Position numbers and translations under genes: made by a program. DNA of 5,445 nucleotides from an uncultured Clostridia bacterium (GTDB lineage: Bacteria > Bacillota_A > Clostridia > Christensenellales > Aristaeellaceae). The notes under the pieces are model-generated. The model did not search any database. It was not told the DNA's origin and saw nothing but the letters and a program-made list of their open reading frames with translations. The DNA lies in contig CAMBWJ010000150.1 in NCBI GenBank assembly GCA_945871545.1, positions 1 to 5,445 on the forward strand, written 5' to 3'. Below, in pieces: positions 163 through 5,445 of the stretch; position 1 is the first letter of the stretch, and each line of letters starts with the position of its first letter.

Positions 163-1434
163 TCAGTCGATCTTCTCCAACGCCTCGCAGATCGCGGAGA
201 TCATGTACAGCGATCCGCAGGCGCACACCACACCCTCGGGACCGGCGTGCTCGATGGCGGTCTGCACGCCCTCGGCCACGCTTTTACAGGCGCACACCGG
301 CAGCCCGTAGCGCTCCAGGTGGCGGGCCAGGTCCTCTGCGGGCAGGGAGCGGGGGTTGTCGGGGGTGACGGTGACGAACTCCTTTGCGAAGGGGGCCAGC
401 ATGCGGAACATCTCGCCGTAGTCCTTGTCGGCCATGCAGCCGTTCAGGAAGGTGAGCTTCCGCCCGGGCAGATAGTCCCGGATGGCGCGCACCAGCGCCT
501 CCAGGCACTGGGCGTTGTGGCCGCCGTCGATGATGAACAGCGGATTCTTGCGCATGACTTGGAAGCGCCCCGGCCAGCTGACCTTCTCCAGACCCGCGCG
601 GACGGCGGATTCGGGAATGCTCCAGCCCTTGCCCTGCAGGGCCTGAAGCGTCGTCAGCACCGTGCAGGCGTTGTGCAGCTGGTGCTCGCCCAGCAGCGGG
701 ATGTGCAGGTTCTTCAGATCCTTCCAGTGGAACACCTGACCCTCCAGACCGTGGGAGACGGGGGTGAGATCGTCCATGGCGGCGCGGTGCAGGCGCGCAC
801 CGTGATCTTCGCAGCTGCGGCGGATCACGTCCTCCACGGAGGGTTGCTGCGCATAGAGCACGCAGTCGCAGCCGTCCTTGATGATGCCGGCCTTGGCCTG
901 GGCGATTTCCTCCACGGTGTTGCCCAGCACCTGCATGTGGTCCAGGCCGATGTTCACGATCACGGCGGCCTCCGGCGCGTCGATCACGTTGGTGGAGTCC
1001 AGCTCGCCGCCCAGGCCCACCTCCAGCACCACGATCTCGCAGGCGTGGCGGGCGAAGTACTCCATGGCGATGCAGGTGACCAGCTCAAACTCGGTGGGGT
1101 GCTCCTCCATGGACTCCGCCAGCGGCTGGATGTACTCGGTGATTGCGGAGAGCTCCTCGTCGGAGATTTCCTGACCGCACACCTGCATGCGCTCGTTGAA
1201 GCGCAGGATGTAGGGCGAGGTGTACAGGCCGGTGCGGTAGCCGGCCTCCCGCAGCACGCGCTCCAGCATGGCGGCGGTGGAGCCCTTGCCGTTGGTTCCG
1301 GCGATGTGGATGAACTTCAGCTTCTTTTCCGGGTTGCCCATCTTCTCCAGCAGCTCGCGGGTGCGGCCCAGGCCCGGGCGCACGCCCATCCAGCAGATGC
1401 TGTGTATGTATTTCAGCGCTTCATTGACGTTCAA
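163..1434 (-). CDS. folC: Bifunctional folylpolyglutamate synthase / dihydrofolate synthase
   Basis: This cytoplasmic Mur-ligase-family enzyme uses ATP to add glutamate to folates, and in bifunctional members also to dihydropteroate. It thereby makes dihydrofolate and the polyglutamates that are retained in the cell. The 423-residue product has the normal family length. Visible motifs are the P-loop AGTNGKGST (45-53), SPYILRFNERM (73-83), LEVGLGGELDSTN (137-149), LDH with the metal-binding His (164-166), KAGIIK (181-186) with the lysine region that is usually carbamylated, PGRFQV (288-293), DGGHN (303-307) and the ADKD segment (335-338). Residue 144 is Glu where many homologues have Arg. I chose the TTG at 1434-1432 because AGAGAGGG lies eight bases upstream and the protein then begins NVNEALKYIHS, typical of the family. 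The frame stays open far upstream by chance. Whether both activities are present cannot be told from sequence. Confidence 0.95.
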   Translation of the reverse strand: MNVNEALKYIHSICWMGVRPGLGRTRELLEKMGNPEKKLKFIHIAGTNGKGSTAAMLERVLREAGYRTGLYTSPYILRFNERMQVCGQEISDEELSAITEYIQPLAESMEEHPTEFELVTCIAMEYFARHACEIVVLEVGLGGELDSTNVIDAPEAAVIVNIGLDHMQVLGNTVEEIAQAKAGIIKDGCDCVLYAQQPSVEDVIRRSCEDHGARLHRAAMDDLTPVSHGLEGQVFHWKDLKNLHIPLLGEHQLHNACTVLTTLQALQGKGWSIPESAVRAGLEKVSWPGRFQVMRKNPLFIIDGGHNAQCLEALVRAIRDYLPGRKLTFLNGCMADKDYGEMFRMLAPFAKEFVTVTPDNPRSLPAEDLARHLERYGLPVCACKSVAEGVQTAIEHAGPEGVVCACGSLYMISAICEALEKID

Positions 1435-2550: not shown

Positions 2551-2559
2551 GGTGGGCAA

Positions 2560-2651
2560 CAGAGTAGGGTTTTCTTCGTTAAGTGCCGCCAAAATGGGGA
2601 GTTGTCTGGCGGACGAAGGCGCAAGCCGCGGTTGAAGACCCGCACCCGCTG
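2560..2651 (+). ncRNA. Tetrahydrofolate (THF) riboswitch aptamer
   Basis: This matches the known THF riboswitch class in both conserved bases and helices. P1 is CAG 2560-2562 with CTG 2649-2651, followed by the conserved AGTA. P2 is GGGTTTTC 2567-2574 with GAAGACCC 2634-2641 (8 bp, one wobble). Next comes the conserved GTTAAGTG at 2578-2585. P3 is CGT 2577-2579 with ACG 2613-2615, continuing as CCGCCA 2586-2591 with TGGCGG 2607-2612, and is capped by a loop with the conserved ATGGG. A small hairpin GGC-GCAA-GCC (2618-2627) carries a GNRA loop. The strand GCACCCG (2642-2648) corresponds to GCAUCCG of the Eubacterium siraeum aptamer as I recall it, and its CCC could form the pseudoknot with GGG 2597-2599. 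The class binds reduced folates and commonly precedes folate transport genes; the next gene is a FolT-like S component. Confidence 0.9.
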
Positions 2652-2656
2652 AACCA

Positions 2657-2686: not shown

Positions 2687-2721
2687 CAGCATGTGTCAAA
2701 TGCTCTGAAAGGAGGTTTTTT
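2675..2721 (+). terminator. RBS-sequestering hairpin and possible intrinsic terminator in the folT leader
   Basis: AACCTCCTT (2675-2683) is perfectly complementary to AAGGAGGTT (2709-2717), which contains the folT ribosome binding site. An inner stem, AGCAT 2688-2692 with ATGCT 2700-2704, caps it. The helix runs directly into six T residues (2716-2721), so the same hairpin could stop transcription as well as hide the Shine-Dalgarno. It may also serve as the missing terminator for aldolase read-through. Confidence 0.65.
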
Positions 2722-2722
2722 C

Positions 2723-3805
2723 ATGTCTCAGAACAACGCTCCCGAACTCTACGCCCACCCCTTCTCCAAGGCCTACTGGAAGCAGGCCGCCAGCGAATTC
2801 AAGAAGACGAAGGTGCTGATCTTCGCGGCGCTGATGATCGCCCTGCGCGTGGTGCTGAAGATGGTCAGCATTCCCGTCGGTCCCGACCTGCGCATCAACA
2901 CGGCGTTCTTCATCAACGCCTACGGCGCGGCGGTGTTCGGGCCGGTGGTGGCCATCGTGGCCGCCGCCATCTCCGATACCCTGGGCTGCCTGCTGTTTCC
3001 CACCGGCGTGTACTTCTTTCCCTTCGTGTTCATCGAGATCGCGGGCTCCCTGGTCTTTGCGCTGTGCTTCTACCGGGCGAGGATCAGCTCCGCGCGGGTG
3101 ATGCTGTCCCGCTTCCTGATCGACTTCGGCGTGAACATCGTGCTGAACACGCCCGTCATGGTGCTGTACTACAGGATGATCCTGGGCAAGTATTACGCCA
3201 TCGTCGACCTGCCCCGCATCGCCAAGAATCTGTGCATGTTCCCCATCGAATCGATCCTGCTGATCCTGTTCTTCCGCCTGGTGATCCCGCCGACGAAGCA
3301 CCTGGGCCTGATCCACGGCGACGTGGAGAAGCTGCGCTTCACGAAGAAGAACATCACCCTGCTGATCGTACTGTTCGTGGTGGGCGTGGCTGCGGTGTTC
3401 GGTTACAGCGTATACAGCTACAACAACACCTCCCTGAGCGCCAGCTACACCGCCTCCGAGCGCCTGGAAAAGAACGTCTCCATGCAGCAGTACGTGCTTG
3501 AGGACAATCCCTCGCTGGCGGACGGGACGATCGTGACCGTCATCGAGAGCGCCATCCCAAAGTTCGCCGATCCCAACGTCACCTACTCCGTGGCGGTCTA
3601 CACGGTGAACGAGGAGGAGCTTGCAAGCAACATCGCCGAGGCGAAGGAGAAGGATCCCAACTCCAGCTACGGCATGGATACCCTCAACGGCTACTCCAAG
3701 TCCAAAGCCAAGGCGGATGACGCGCTGGAGAGCGCCGGCTACGCCACCATCGTGCTGAACAAGAAGACCGGCGAGCTGGTCTCCTATGCCGACGACATCG
3801 AATAA
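2723..3805 (+). CDS. folT: Folate-specific ECF transporter S component (FolT-like) with extra C-terminal domain
   Basis: S components are membrane proteins that bind a vitamin and work with the shared EcfA/EcfA'/EcfT energising module to import it; that module is not in this window. Residues about 30-195 form the S-component core of roughly six hydrophobic segments. TM1 carries an AxxxA contact motif (Ala36-Ala40), and IPVGPDLRI (50-58) with LLFPTGVYF (90-98) resembles folate-family members. The THF riboswitch upstream strongly supports folate as substrate. The protein is 360 residues, about twice the usual length: a further hydrophobic segment (211-229) and a polar tail (230-360) follow the core. 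If the core ends inside the cell, the tail lies outside. I chose ATG 2723 because AAGGAGG ends seven bases before it; in-frame ATGs at 2660 and 2684 lack such a site and lie inside the regulatory hairpins. Two terminators follow. Confidence 0.88.
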   Translation: MSQNNAPELYAHPFSKAYWKQAASEFKKTKVLIFAALMIALRVVLKMVSIPVGPDLRINTAFFINAYGAAVFGPVVAIVAAAISDTLGCLLFPTGVYFFPFVFIEIAGSLVFALCFYRARISSARVMLSRFLIDFGVNIVLNTPVMVLYYRMILGKYYAIVDLPRIAKNLCMFPIESILLILFFRLVIPPTKHLGLIHGDVEKLRFTKKNITLLIVLFVVGVAAVFGYSVYSYNNTSLSASYTASERLEKNVSMQQYVLEDNPSLADGTIVTVIESAIPKFADPNVTYSVAVYTVNEEELASNIAEAKEKDPNSSYGMDTLNGYSKSKAKADDALESAGYATIVLNKKTGELVSYADDIE

Positions 3806-3971: not shown

Positions 3972-4292
3972 ATGGATGCACAGCTGCGGCGCGGCCTTTT
4001 GGAGGTCTGCGTGCTCGCCGCCGTCGCCCGGCACGATTCCTACGGCTACCAGATCATCCGGGAGATGGAGCCCTTTGTGGAGATCTCGGAATCCACGCTG
4101 TACCCGATCCTGCGCAGGCTGGAGGCGGGGGAGATGCTCAGCGTGTACAGCGTGGAGCACAGCGGACGGCTGCGGAAGTACTATCAGATCACGCAGCGGG
4201 GCCGGGATCGCCTCGCGGAGTTTCAGCAGGAGTGGGGAGAGATCATGAGGATTTACAGCTTTATTGCGGGAGGTGCGCAGGAGGATGAATAG
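3972..4292 (+). CDS. PadR-family winged-helix transcriptional regulator
   Basis: A 106-residue cytoplasmic DNA-binding protein of the short PadR subfamily. Typical signatures run in order: LRRGLLEVCVLAAV (5-18), the SYGYQI element (23-28), the recognition-helix segment ISESTLYPILRRLE (38-51), and the wing GRLRKYYQIT (65-74). A final helix (about 76-98) would form the dimer interface. Family members are usually repressors, often of the operon they head. The ATG at 3972 follows AGGGAGG with a seven-base gap. The consensus promoter and the dyad over its -10 suggest autoregulation. The end overlaps the start of the DUF1700 gene by eight bases, so the two are probably translationally coupled. The inducing signal is unknown and no ligand pocket can be inferred. 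Confidence 0.94.
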   Translation: MDAQLRRGLLEVCVLAAVARHDSYGYQIIREMEPFVEISESTLYPILRRLEAGEMLSVYSVEHSGRLRKYYQITQRGRDRLAEFQQEWGEIMRIYSFIAGGAQEDE

Positions 4293-4863
4293 GAAGGAAT
4301 TTTTGCGGTCGCTGTCGCGTTCGCTGCGGGGGATGCCCCGGGCGGAGCGCGCGCAGTCGCTGGAGTACTACGGGGAGATGATTCAGGATCGCATGGAGGA
4401 GGGTCTGAGCGAGGAGGAGGCGGTGGCCTGTCTGGACAGCGCGGACGAAATCGCCCGGCAGATTCTGGAGAGCAACGGCGTTCAGGAGAAGCGCAGGAAC
4501 CGGGCGCCGATCTGGATGATCGCGCTGATCGTGCTGGGTTCGCCGCTGTGGCTCACGCTGCTGTTTGCATTTCTCGCGGTGGTGCTGGCGGCGTACATCG
4601 TGGCATGGTCGCTGATCGCGGCGCTGTACGCCGTGCTGCTGGGCATGGCGGTCTGCGGGCCCTGCGGCGCGCTGGGACTTGTGGTGGAGCTTGCGAAGGG
4701 CAACTTCAGCCTGGCGGTGCTGCTGCTGGGCGCAGGCTGCGCGCTGCTGGGAATCGCGCTGCTGGTTCTGCCCTGGTTCAACCGCGCAACAATTGCGGTT
4801 GCCCGCGCCAGCGCCTGGTGCGCGCAGGGAATCCTGCGCATCTTTGAGAGGAGGAAGGCATGA
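4285..4863 (+). CDS. DUF1700-family integral membrane protein
   Basis: This 192-residue protein has a charged cytoplasmic N-terminal region with the usual family pattern: NRKEFLRSLSRSLRGMP (2-18), then LEYYGEMIQDRMEEGLSEEEAV (26-47) and a short helix DSADEIARQIL (51-61). A highly hydrophobic region (about 76-165) follows, probably four membrane passes with a break at ELAKGNF (135-141), and a short basic tail. The biochemical function of the family is not established. It is repeatedly found next to PadR regulators and DUF4097 proteins, as here. ATG 4285 fits the family start. Its ribosome binding site is unusual: AGGAGG abuts the ATG with no gap, while GGGAGG (4268-4273) lies 11 bases away, suggesting reliance on coupling to padR translation. 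A TTG at 4264 would add seven residues and is less likely. Confidence 0.88.
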   Translation: MNRKEFLRSLSRSLRGMPRAERAQSLEYYGEMIQDRMEEGLSEEEAVACLDSADEIARQILESNGVQEKRRNRAPIWMIALIVLGSPLWLTLLFAFLAVVLAAYIVAWSLIAALYAVLLGMAVCGPCGALGLVVELAKGNFSLAVLLLGAGCALLGIALLVLPWFNRATIAVARASAWCAQGILRIFERRKA

Positions 4864-5445
4864 TGCATACCTGGGAGAGAAGGATCACGCGCATCGGTGC
4901 GCTGCTGCTCCTCATCGGAGCGTTGCTGTGCGTGGGCGCGTTTGCAGTGAACGGCTTCAGCTTTGACGGCCTGGAGAACGTCTCCTACGAGGCGGTGACC
5001 TACATGCCCGAGGGGGCGTTCGACCGCCTGGACGTGTCGGCGGTGGATGCGGAGATTCACATCCAGCCCGCGCAGGACGGCATTTGCAGGGTCGTCTGCG
5101 ACGAGCGGGAAGACGCACGGTACAGCGTGGAGGTTCAGGACGGCGCGCTCACGGTGCGCAGCGGGGTCAACTGGCGCGCGGGCATTCCCTTCACTCTGAA
5201 AACGCCGCTGCTGATGATCGAGCTGCCGGAGAGGGCGTATGCGGAGCTGAAGGTGCACAGTGTCAGCGGGGACATCGACCTCTGGAGGCTGCGCATCGAT
5301 GCGCTGGCGATTGACACCACCAGCGGCGAGGTCGGTCTGGAGAAGCTTACGCTGGGCAGTCTGGACGTGGAGACGGTCAGCGGCGACGTTGAGATGACGG
5401 ACAGCGCTGCGAGCGGCGACGTGACCATCCGCACCACCAGCGGCG
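4860..5445 (+). CDS. DUF4097-family membrane-anchored beta-repeat protein, cut by window end
   Basis: The frame runs off the right edge after 195 codons. A basic N-terminus (WERRITRIG, 5-13) leads into one membrane segment (about 14-30), after which the chain should be outside the cell. From about residue 55 it is rich in alternating beta-strand residues and shows recurring turns: VSGDIDL (135-141), TTSGEVGL (153-160), TVSGDVEM (172-179), ASGDVTI (184-190) and TTSG (192-195). This pattern is typical of DUF4097 proteins, thought to form a stacked beta fold; function is unknown. The ATG at 4860 overlaps the DUF1700 stop as ATGA; a second ATG at 4863 is equally plausible (AGGAGG 4849-4854 lies five or eight bases upstream). 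It is the third gene of the PadR operon; more genes may follow outside the window. Confidence 0.86.
   Translation, partial: MMHTWERRITRIGALLLLIGALLCVGAFAVNGFSFDGLENVSYEAVTYMPEGAFDRLDVSAVDAEIHIQPAQDGICRVVCDEREDARYSVEVQDGALTVRSGVNWRAGIPFTLKTPLLMIELPERAYAELKVHSVSGDIDLWRLRIDALAIDTTSGEVGLEKLTLGSLDVETVSGDVEMTDSAASGDVTIRTTSG

Follow-up and report, generated by a model that had tools for sequence, protein, structure and literature searches.

A FolT-type S component with a seventh transmembrane helix and a predicted folded, probably extracytoplasmic tail in uncultured Clostridia

Background

According to the available sections of PMC11109136, S components of energy-coupling factor (ECF) transporters stop after helix 6. 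The folT-like gene in a 5,445-nucleotide stretch of DNA from an uncultured Clostridia bacterium (GCA_945871545.1, contig CAMBWJ010000150.1; the whole stretch is hereafter the window) encodes a protein that runs on past this point, through a linker and a further hydrophobic segment, into a polar domain, here called the tail. An earlier annotation made from the letters alone, the original prediction, had described this arrangement, and the locus raises the question of whether it is genuine, on which side of the membrane the tail lies, and what it could do there. The best explanation as a whole, to which we give a probability of roughly 0.4, would be a working folate importer subunit carrying a cap that is tethered by a seventh transmembrane helix (TM7), while the architecture and topology taken together are very probably right. 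The parts of the gene are as follows.

2723..3805, + strand: folT-like gene, 360 residues (S component, TM7 and tail), a single open reading frame (ORF) with family matches
2801..3298, + strand: six-helix S-component core, residues 27-192 (TIGR04518; Foldseek)
3299..3343, + strand: linker, residues 193-207, a coil rich in K/R before TM7 and presumably cytoplasmic (AlphaFold2, lower local model confidence (pLDDT), charges)
3344..3427, + strand: TM7, residues 208-235 (AlphaFold2 helix; hydropathy)
3428..3802, + strand: tail, residues 236-360, with the order helix, beta hairpin, helices, beta hairpin; extracytoplasmic by prediction

The core and its folate residues

Residues 27-185 passed the NCBIfam model TIGR04518 (76.6 bits against a cut-off of 60), FolT chains were the matches of the protein sequence among solved structures, and a Foldseek search with the AlphaFold2 model returned FolT structures (best E 2.4e-7), with 4huq_S at E 2.8e-7 and a TM-score of 0.86 by target length. 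We take the FolT structures 4z7f, 4huq_S and 5d3m to be those of E. faecalis, L. brevis and L. delbrueckii. By family and by predicted fold, the ORF is a FolT-type S component, as had been proposed, and its last core helix stops at residue 192 in the model, close to the core end near residue 195 that was first suggested. The AxxxA motif of helix 1 (A36/A40), tied to docking on EcfT in the available part of PMC11109136, is invariant in 81 of 81 aligned rows, and 24 of 26 related genomes contain the EcfT family PF02361.

The available part of PMC4525288 gives the folate ligands of EfFolT as R26, K36, D64, F80, T81, N117, T121, R142 and K145. Five of these, D64, F80, N117, R142 and K145, are matched in the window by D85, F101, N138, R165 and K168, and K36, the L1 lysine, is replaced by R57. 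Across the 81 rows D85, N138 and K168 are invariant and position 101 is F in 78. Other ligand positions depart from EfFolT and count against the reading as a working folate importer subunit: T81 and T121 have become V and N in the window and are mostly I/V and N/Q in the 81 rows, K or R stands at the position of the L1 lysine in 64 of 81 rows, 59 of 81 retain the SM6 arginine, and R26 has no arginine counterpart, aligning with M47, next to the invariant K46.

The leader of the gene bears on the ligand as well.

2558..2653, + strand: aptamer of a class I tetrahydrofolate (THF) riboswitch, within the leader of folT (Rfam RF01831, 77 bits)
2710..2715, + strand: ribosome-binding site AGGAGG, read in the sequence 7 bases 5' of ATG 2723

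The score of RF01831 compares with a gathering score of 36, and the full model (1-99) is covered. A home-made covariance model (R1), made from 26 THF riboswitches, was run on the window and on the 80 related loci described below, many of which had donated sequences to it, and it placed a THF riboswitch 45-335 bases upstream of the folT ORF in 73 of the 80 loci (62 of 66 tailed and 11 of 14 tail-less, that of the tail-less L067 being cut at the contig start). Rfam runs covered the window, 20 loci and then 10 loci or stretches (L030 twice), and Rfam's own model found the riboswitch in 19 of the 20 loci. R1 found none at L014, L017, L030, L062, L063 and L076, and at L009 the 78 bases upstream are too short for a judgement. 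The tail therefore recurs in riboswitch-linked folT genes, a check that the original prediction had put forward. The family match, the FolT fold, the conserved ligands and the riboswitch link together argue that the core would bind folate, dock on EcfT via AxxxA and be under riboswitch control; folate transport itself we infer.

The seventh helix and the tail

The AlphaFold2 model gives TM7 as a helix of 28 residues separate from the six-helix core, with a hydropathy peak of 2.47 at 211-229, so that the hydrophobic stretch does lie outside the core, as read from the letters, and Foldseek agrees. The tail is not disordered in the model; it appears as a folded alpha/beta domain with a pLDDT of about 90, and when modelled alone it reaches a pLDDT of 91.8 and a predicted TM-score (pTM) of 0.80. 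The peptide SYTASERLEKN does occupy residues 241-251, and the stretches 269-281 and 341-355 that had been quoted with it were likewise confirmed in place. Comparison of the tail, also on its own, with Pfam, NCBIfam and solved structures gave no convincing match, in line with its description as unassigned; the cystatin/monellin fold is a candidate comparison among the nearest known systems. Neither of the two findings named beforehand as refuting the prediction, a described domain in the tail or a place for 211-229 within the core, thus came up in these searches and models. The majority residue exceeds 90% of 67 rows at N251, Y293, A329 and L335, N251 being invariant (67/67), and the polar residues E246, R247, N251 and K326 are conserved at 84-100%. 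A divergent subtype of the tail, shorter and with about 17-24% identity to that of the window, occurs in L037, L038, L040, L044, L048, L059 and L061, where it starts NTxNxAS vs NTTSLSAS.

On which side of the membrane would the tail lie? Both termini of the EfFolT core are cytoplasmic (available part of PMC4525288), four K/R fall within the 18 residues preceding TM7, and TM7 is strongly hydrophobic; a core ending inside, a positive flank and such a helix should place the tail outside. A relative of the tail points the same way. In 291 genomes of one class, the tail profile matched the C-terminal region of a lipoprotein (L091, 1483-2331, minus strand, E 2.6e-8) with a lipobox seen by eye, in a different genome of the same class. 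L091 belongs to a large unannotated lipoprotein family (L094-L123, several copies in some genomes); with E-values of 0.001 or lower, relatives of L091 occur in 43 of 98 genomes of its taxonomic family, a number of them as short N-terminal matches only. The hhalign comparison of the tail alignment A2 (58 of 67 tails) with the lipoprotein alignment A3 (23 of 30 lipoproteins) gave a probability of 93.8% and E 1.7e-7 over 73 columns, and A2 against a single lipoprotein gave 76.0% and E 2.3e-5; telling against this homology, the full-length FolT alignment A1 (47 of 121 sequences, i.e. the window and the 120 listed) scored lower against A3, at 63.5% and E 6.8e-5. Pfam gave no convincing match on 23 lipoprotein family members, and NCBIfam nothing over cut-off on the one member scanned. 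The lipoproteins share their C-terminal domain with the tail and differ in their lipid anchor, their length of about 280 residues and the lack of a transporter; the window protein has no N-terminal lipoprotein signal or lipobox, its tail hanging on TM7, and is not a member of that family. The homology supports an extracytoplasmic tail, and so does L043 (6016-6462), where a further, eighth hydrophobic stretch with a positively charged end comes after the tail. On sequence and model, then, the extracytoplasmic position first proposed for the tail is probable.

Recurrence, gain and loss of the tail

A search of public proteins found 1205 relatives, scoring only the 7994 candidates with most shared words; among the 120 homologues listed, 115 are 345-366 residues long, and the closest protein cluster, P0001, represents 184 member sequences. 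The tail alone as query matched 225 proteins at E up to 10, and among the 120 matches listed 110 carry a precomputed S-component domain, the other ten being pieces, look-alikes with no called domain, or joins such as P0122 (P0160 was left unread). The 22 stand-alone tail proteins from a profile search were all read by eye as folT pieces or short-contig joins; P0185 (lipoprotein leader) and P0190 (a PF06071 piece) were judged by eye to be joins and are not evidence for other architectures, and P0122 (a PF00144 piece) and P0154 (odd N-terminus), which look like joins too, were not used either.

Of 114 relatives confirmed in the genome scan, 80 were kept, so that the tailed and tail-less counts lean to close relatives; the titles of these loci name metagenome-assembled genomes of Clostridia, Clostridiales, Oscillospiraceae, Christensenellaceae and the like, many with animal-gut isolate names. 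Tailed ORFs (337-380 residues) occur in 66 loci and tail-less ones (229-236 residues) in 14, all 14 of which retain TM7, and a tblastn search of these 14 brought up no remnant of the tail. In whole-genome tests of 26 of the 80 loci, the tail was present once, at folT, in 16 of 16 tailed genomes and in none of the 10 tail-less ones. In the wider samples it was found in 3 of the 291 genomes of one class (the sample centre, the lipoprotein and one likely chance match) and in 2 of 200 and 1 of 197 genomes of two orders, sample centres included; a match inside an ABC permease frame (G230/L092, E 5e-4) was treated as chance.

On a tree of the core only (81 rows, root not known), tail presence switches at least five times, all changes being forced by starred branches, and all 14 tail-less rows are nested in a 47-row clade with 33 tailed rows. 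Rooting with a canonical FolT (L124) gave a branch length of 10 and was useless. The distribution is best read as repeated loss, which is simpler than repeated gain because the tails align with each other; transfer of the segment may be an alternative. TM7 and tail are separable, which the original prediction had not anticipated, and the retention of TM7 in every tail-less row means that this helix has a use of its own or that the core needs it. Near the outer end of TM7, position 227 holds a small residue (G, A or S) in 66 of the 67 tailed rows, against 1 of the 14 rows that lack the tail.

The GC content at third codon positions (GC3) is even along the gene (core 0.93, TM7 0.90, tail 0.90), and codon position 3 is the most divergent in core and tail when the window gene is compared with four relatives, although in the tail of L004 divergence at position 1 (0.388) comes close to that at position 3 (0.405). 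The codon pattern of the tail thus appears mostly purifying. No frameshift or foreign stretch was seen by GC3 and codon-position divergence in the window ORF, which runs from ATG 2723 to its stop codon at 3803-3805, and together with the recurring length this upholds the view that core and tail share one frame.

Several observations on gene surroundings complete the picture. The window holds the following neighbours.

163-1434, - strand: FolC-like Mur ligase family protein, upstream of folT
1627-2466, + strand: class II fructose-bisphosphate aldolase, upstream of folT
3972-5445, + strand: PadR-like regulator, then HAAS-domain membrane protein, then DUF4097 protein, downstream of folT

The FolC-like ligase, which by its family would serve folate polyglutamylation, neighbours folT in only 2 of 80 related loci. 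By crude ORF calling, the ORF 3' of folT varies in strand, distance and kind; an endonuclease III-like ORF (by eye) stands there in L062, L063, L069, L073, L074, L075, L017, L054 and L093, i.e. in tail-less and a few tailed loci. L007 has a second THF riboswitch (1216-1314, minus strand), divergent from the folT riboswitch at 1549-1644 and pointing away from folT. One genome, G010, holds two folate S components of different build, the tailed L026 and a canonical FolT of 197 residues with neither TM7 nor tail (L124, G010:C33:19500-21500, ORF 450-1043), the latter with its own THF riboswitch (271-367) and a folC-like ORF (by eye) 33 bases downstream. HPPK (folK, PF01288) is absent from 14 of the 16 tailed genomes and from all 10 tail-less ones, genome completeness not being given, and since its loss fails to separate the two groups, a link of the tail to folate auxotrophy was rejected. 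One of the two genomes with HPPK among the 26, G001, is home to the locus nearest the window, and there the ORFs beside folT resemble folE, folP and folB-folK by eye.

Discussion

What could a polar domain do on the outside of a folate S component? After the core, the chain would exit on the cytoplasmic side, pass through a flexible charged linker and cross the membrane again with TM7, and the tail, a small alpha/beta domain outside the cell, could serve as an accessory domain that caps the mouth on its outward side (loops L1 and L5), helping folate capture or retention. It is suggested, in the available part of PMC4820897, that a loaded S component can topple since no charges are exposed outside. 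A polar domain fused to the outside would forbid toppling unless it were decoupled, and the coil 193-207 together with TM7 would provide such decoupling: linker and helix would hold the polar domain outside while the core topples onto the ECF module with no charges dragged through the membrane. We infer that TM7 itself is independent of toppling. Taken by itself the cap role is tentative, and a little less probable than the explanation as a whole. A bolder version, in which TM7 stays upright while the core topples, the extracytoplasmic cap loads or gates folate as a covalent counterpart of CbiN, and the tail was gained early in a lineage of Clostridia and shed several times, has to be called doubtful.

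If the tail covers the mouth, its loss might leave traces there. Within the 47-row clade, six of positions 1-232 separate tail-less from tailed rows: 217 and 227 in TM7, and 55, 61, 159 and 162 in the core, the last four all close to L1 and L5 at the extracytoplasmic end. Of 369 control draws that relabelled real tailed clades, five reached three such positions and none reached four, and in a sweep of 18 threshold settings the controls matched the observed count in 0-2 of 139 draws for 15 settings. A number of points weigh against the cap. In the other 3 of 18 settings, 14, 16 and 33 of 139 null draws matched the count; the test was designed after the positions had been seen; and only five independent tailed/tail-less pairs exist, which makes significance impossible. 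Of the other 34 tailed rows, 21 have N in place of D55 and none has D at 162. Moreover, the tail is absent from several lineages and diverges faster than the core, and the pTM of the full-length model is only 0.68. A61 is shared by the other tailed clade (33 of 34 rows), and a direct contact of D55 and D162 with the tail was rejected as a family rule on the evidence of that clade. The position pattern thus agrees with the cap in the 47-row clade and breaks down in the other tailed clade, which makes the cap a lead.

Next to the cap, the tail could be a docking site for another envelope protein, a cell-wall component or dimerisation, with no direct role in folate binding. We regard this as unlikely, since no conserved operon partner was seen around the 80 folT loci, each window neighbour recurring in at most 2 of them (many loci lie on short contigs), and a single convincing tail relative outside folT turned up in the 291 class-wide genomes. 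Somewhat less probable again is the view that the tail is weakly constrained, almost dispensable and of no strong function in transport. The changes on the core tree, the lack of any remnant in the tail-less loci and the variability of the tail would all fit it; against it, the tail is kept in 66 of 80 loci over two large clades with its fold and N251 retained, and in most comparisons there are clearly fewer changes at codon positions 1 and 2 than at position 3.

Could TM7 instead be re-entrant or interfacial, leaving the tail in the cytoplasm, e.g. facing the ECF ATPases? Most short forms do have one or two K/R after TM7, and the topology is a prediction from sequence and model, but the length and hydropathy of TM7, the four K/R before it, the lipoprotein relative and the topology of L043 make this very improbable. 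Less probable still is an enzymatic role, in which the tail would shorten the polyglutamate chains of folates ahead of their uptake, one of the original guesses. It has a substrate logic, core positions 55 and 162 lie close to the binders of the glutamate moiety in EfFolT (available part of PMC4525288), and some polar tail residues (E246, R247, N251 and K326) are conserved; family and structure searches gave no convincing peptidase or hydrolase family and no enzyme fold for the tail, no catalytic motif was recognised in it, and the guess is thus unsupported. A frameshift, chimera or assembly artefact, which the few short metagenome contigs with odd joins (P0122, P0154, P0185 and P0190) might bring to mind, is refuted by the same architecture in 66 of 80 loci and the 184 member sequences of P0001.

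The importer subunit with its proposed tethered cap can be set beside known systems. Canonical FolT of group II ECF transporters has the same TIGR04518 core, six-helix fold, AxxxA motif and most folate ligands, but ends after helix 6 (available sections of PMC11109136), whereas the window protein adds the linker, TM7 and a folded tail. In CbiM/CbiN, the CbiN loop lies over the CbiM S-component pocket on the extracytoplasmic side, held by membrane helices (available part of PMC7689651). If the cap reading is true, the two would be alike in working principle, which is what is compared here. CbiN differs in being a protein of its own, with two helices and a short flexible loop, and in belonging to a metal (cobalt) transporter. 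5TMR sensor kinases likewise combine the S-component fold with an extra helix and a soluble domain, but there, in the available sections of PMC11109136, the added helix stands at the N-terminus, the soluble domains lie in the cytoplasm and the AxxxA motif is missing, unlike in the present proteins. In the open-access literature searched, no paper was recognised as describing a membrane-tethered outside domain at the C-terminus of an S component, so that the suggestion of an undescribed arrangement holds to that extent.

Conclusions

The architecture first described is borne out as real and conserved: TM7 and a tail predicted to fold are added to a known kind of folate S component, with a role that is testable and so far unproven. 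The tail points to an unannotated extracytoplasmic domain common to FolT and a lipoprotein family, and the tail-less forms with TM7, together with the canonical FolT beside a tailed one in G010, form natural comparison pairs. A natural S component with a polar domain fixed outside would also test the toppling idea itself: either the core moves independently of that domain, or the model must change.
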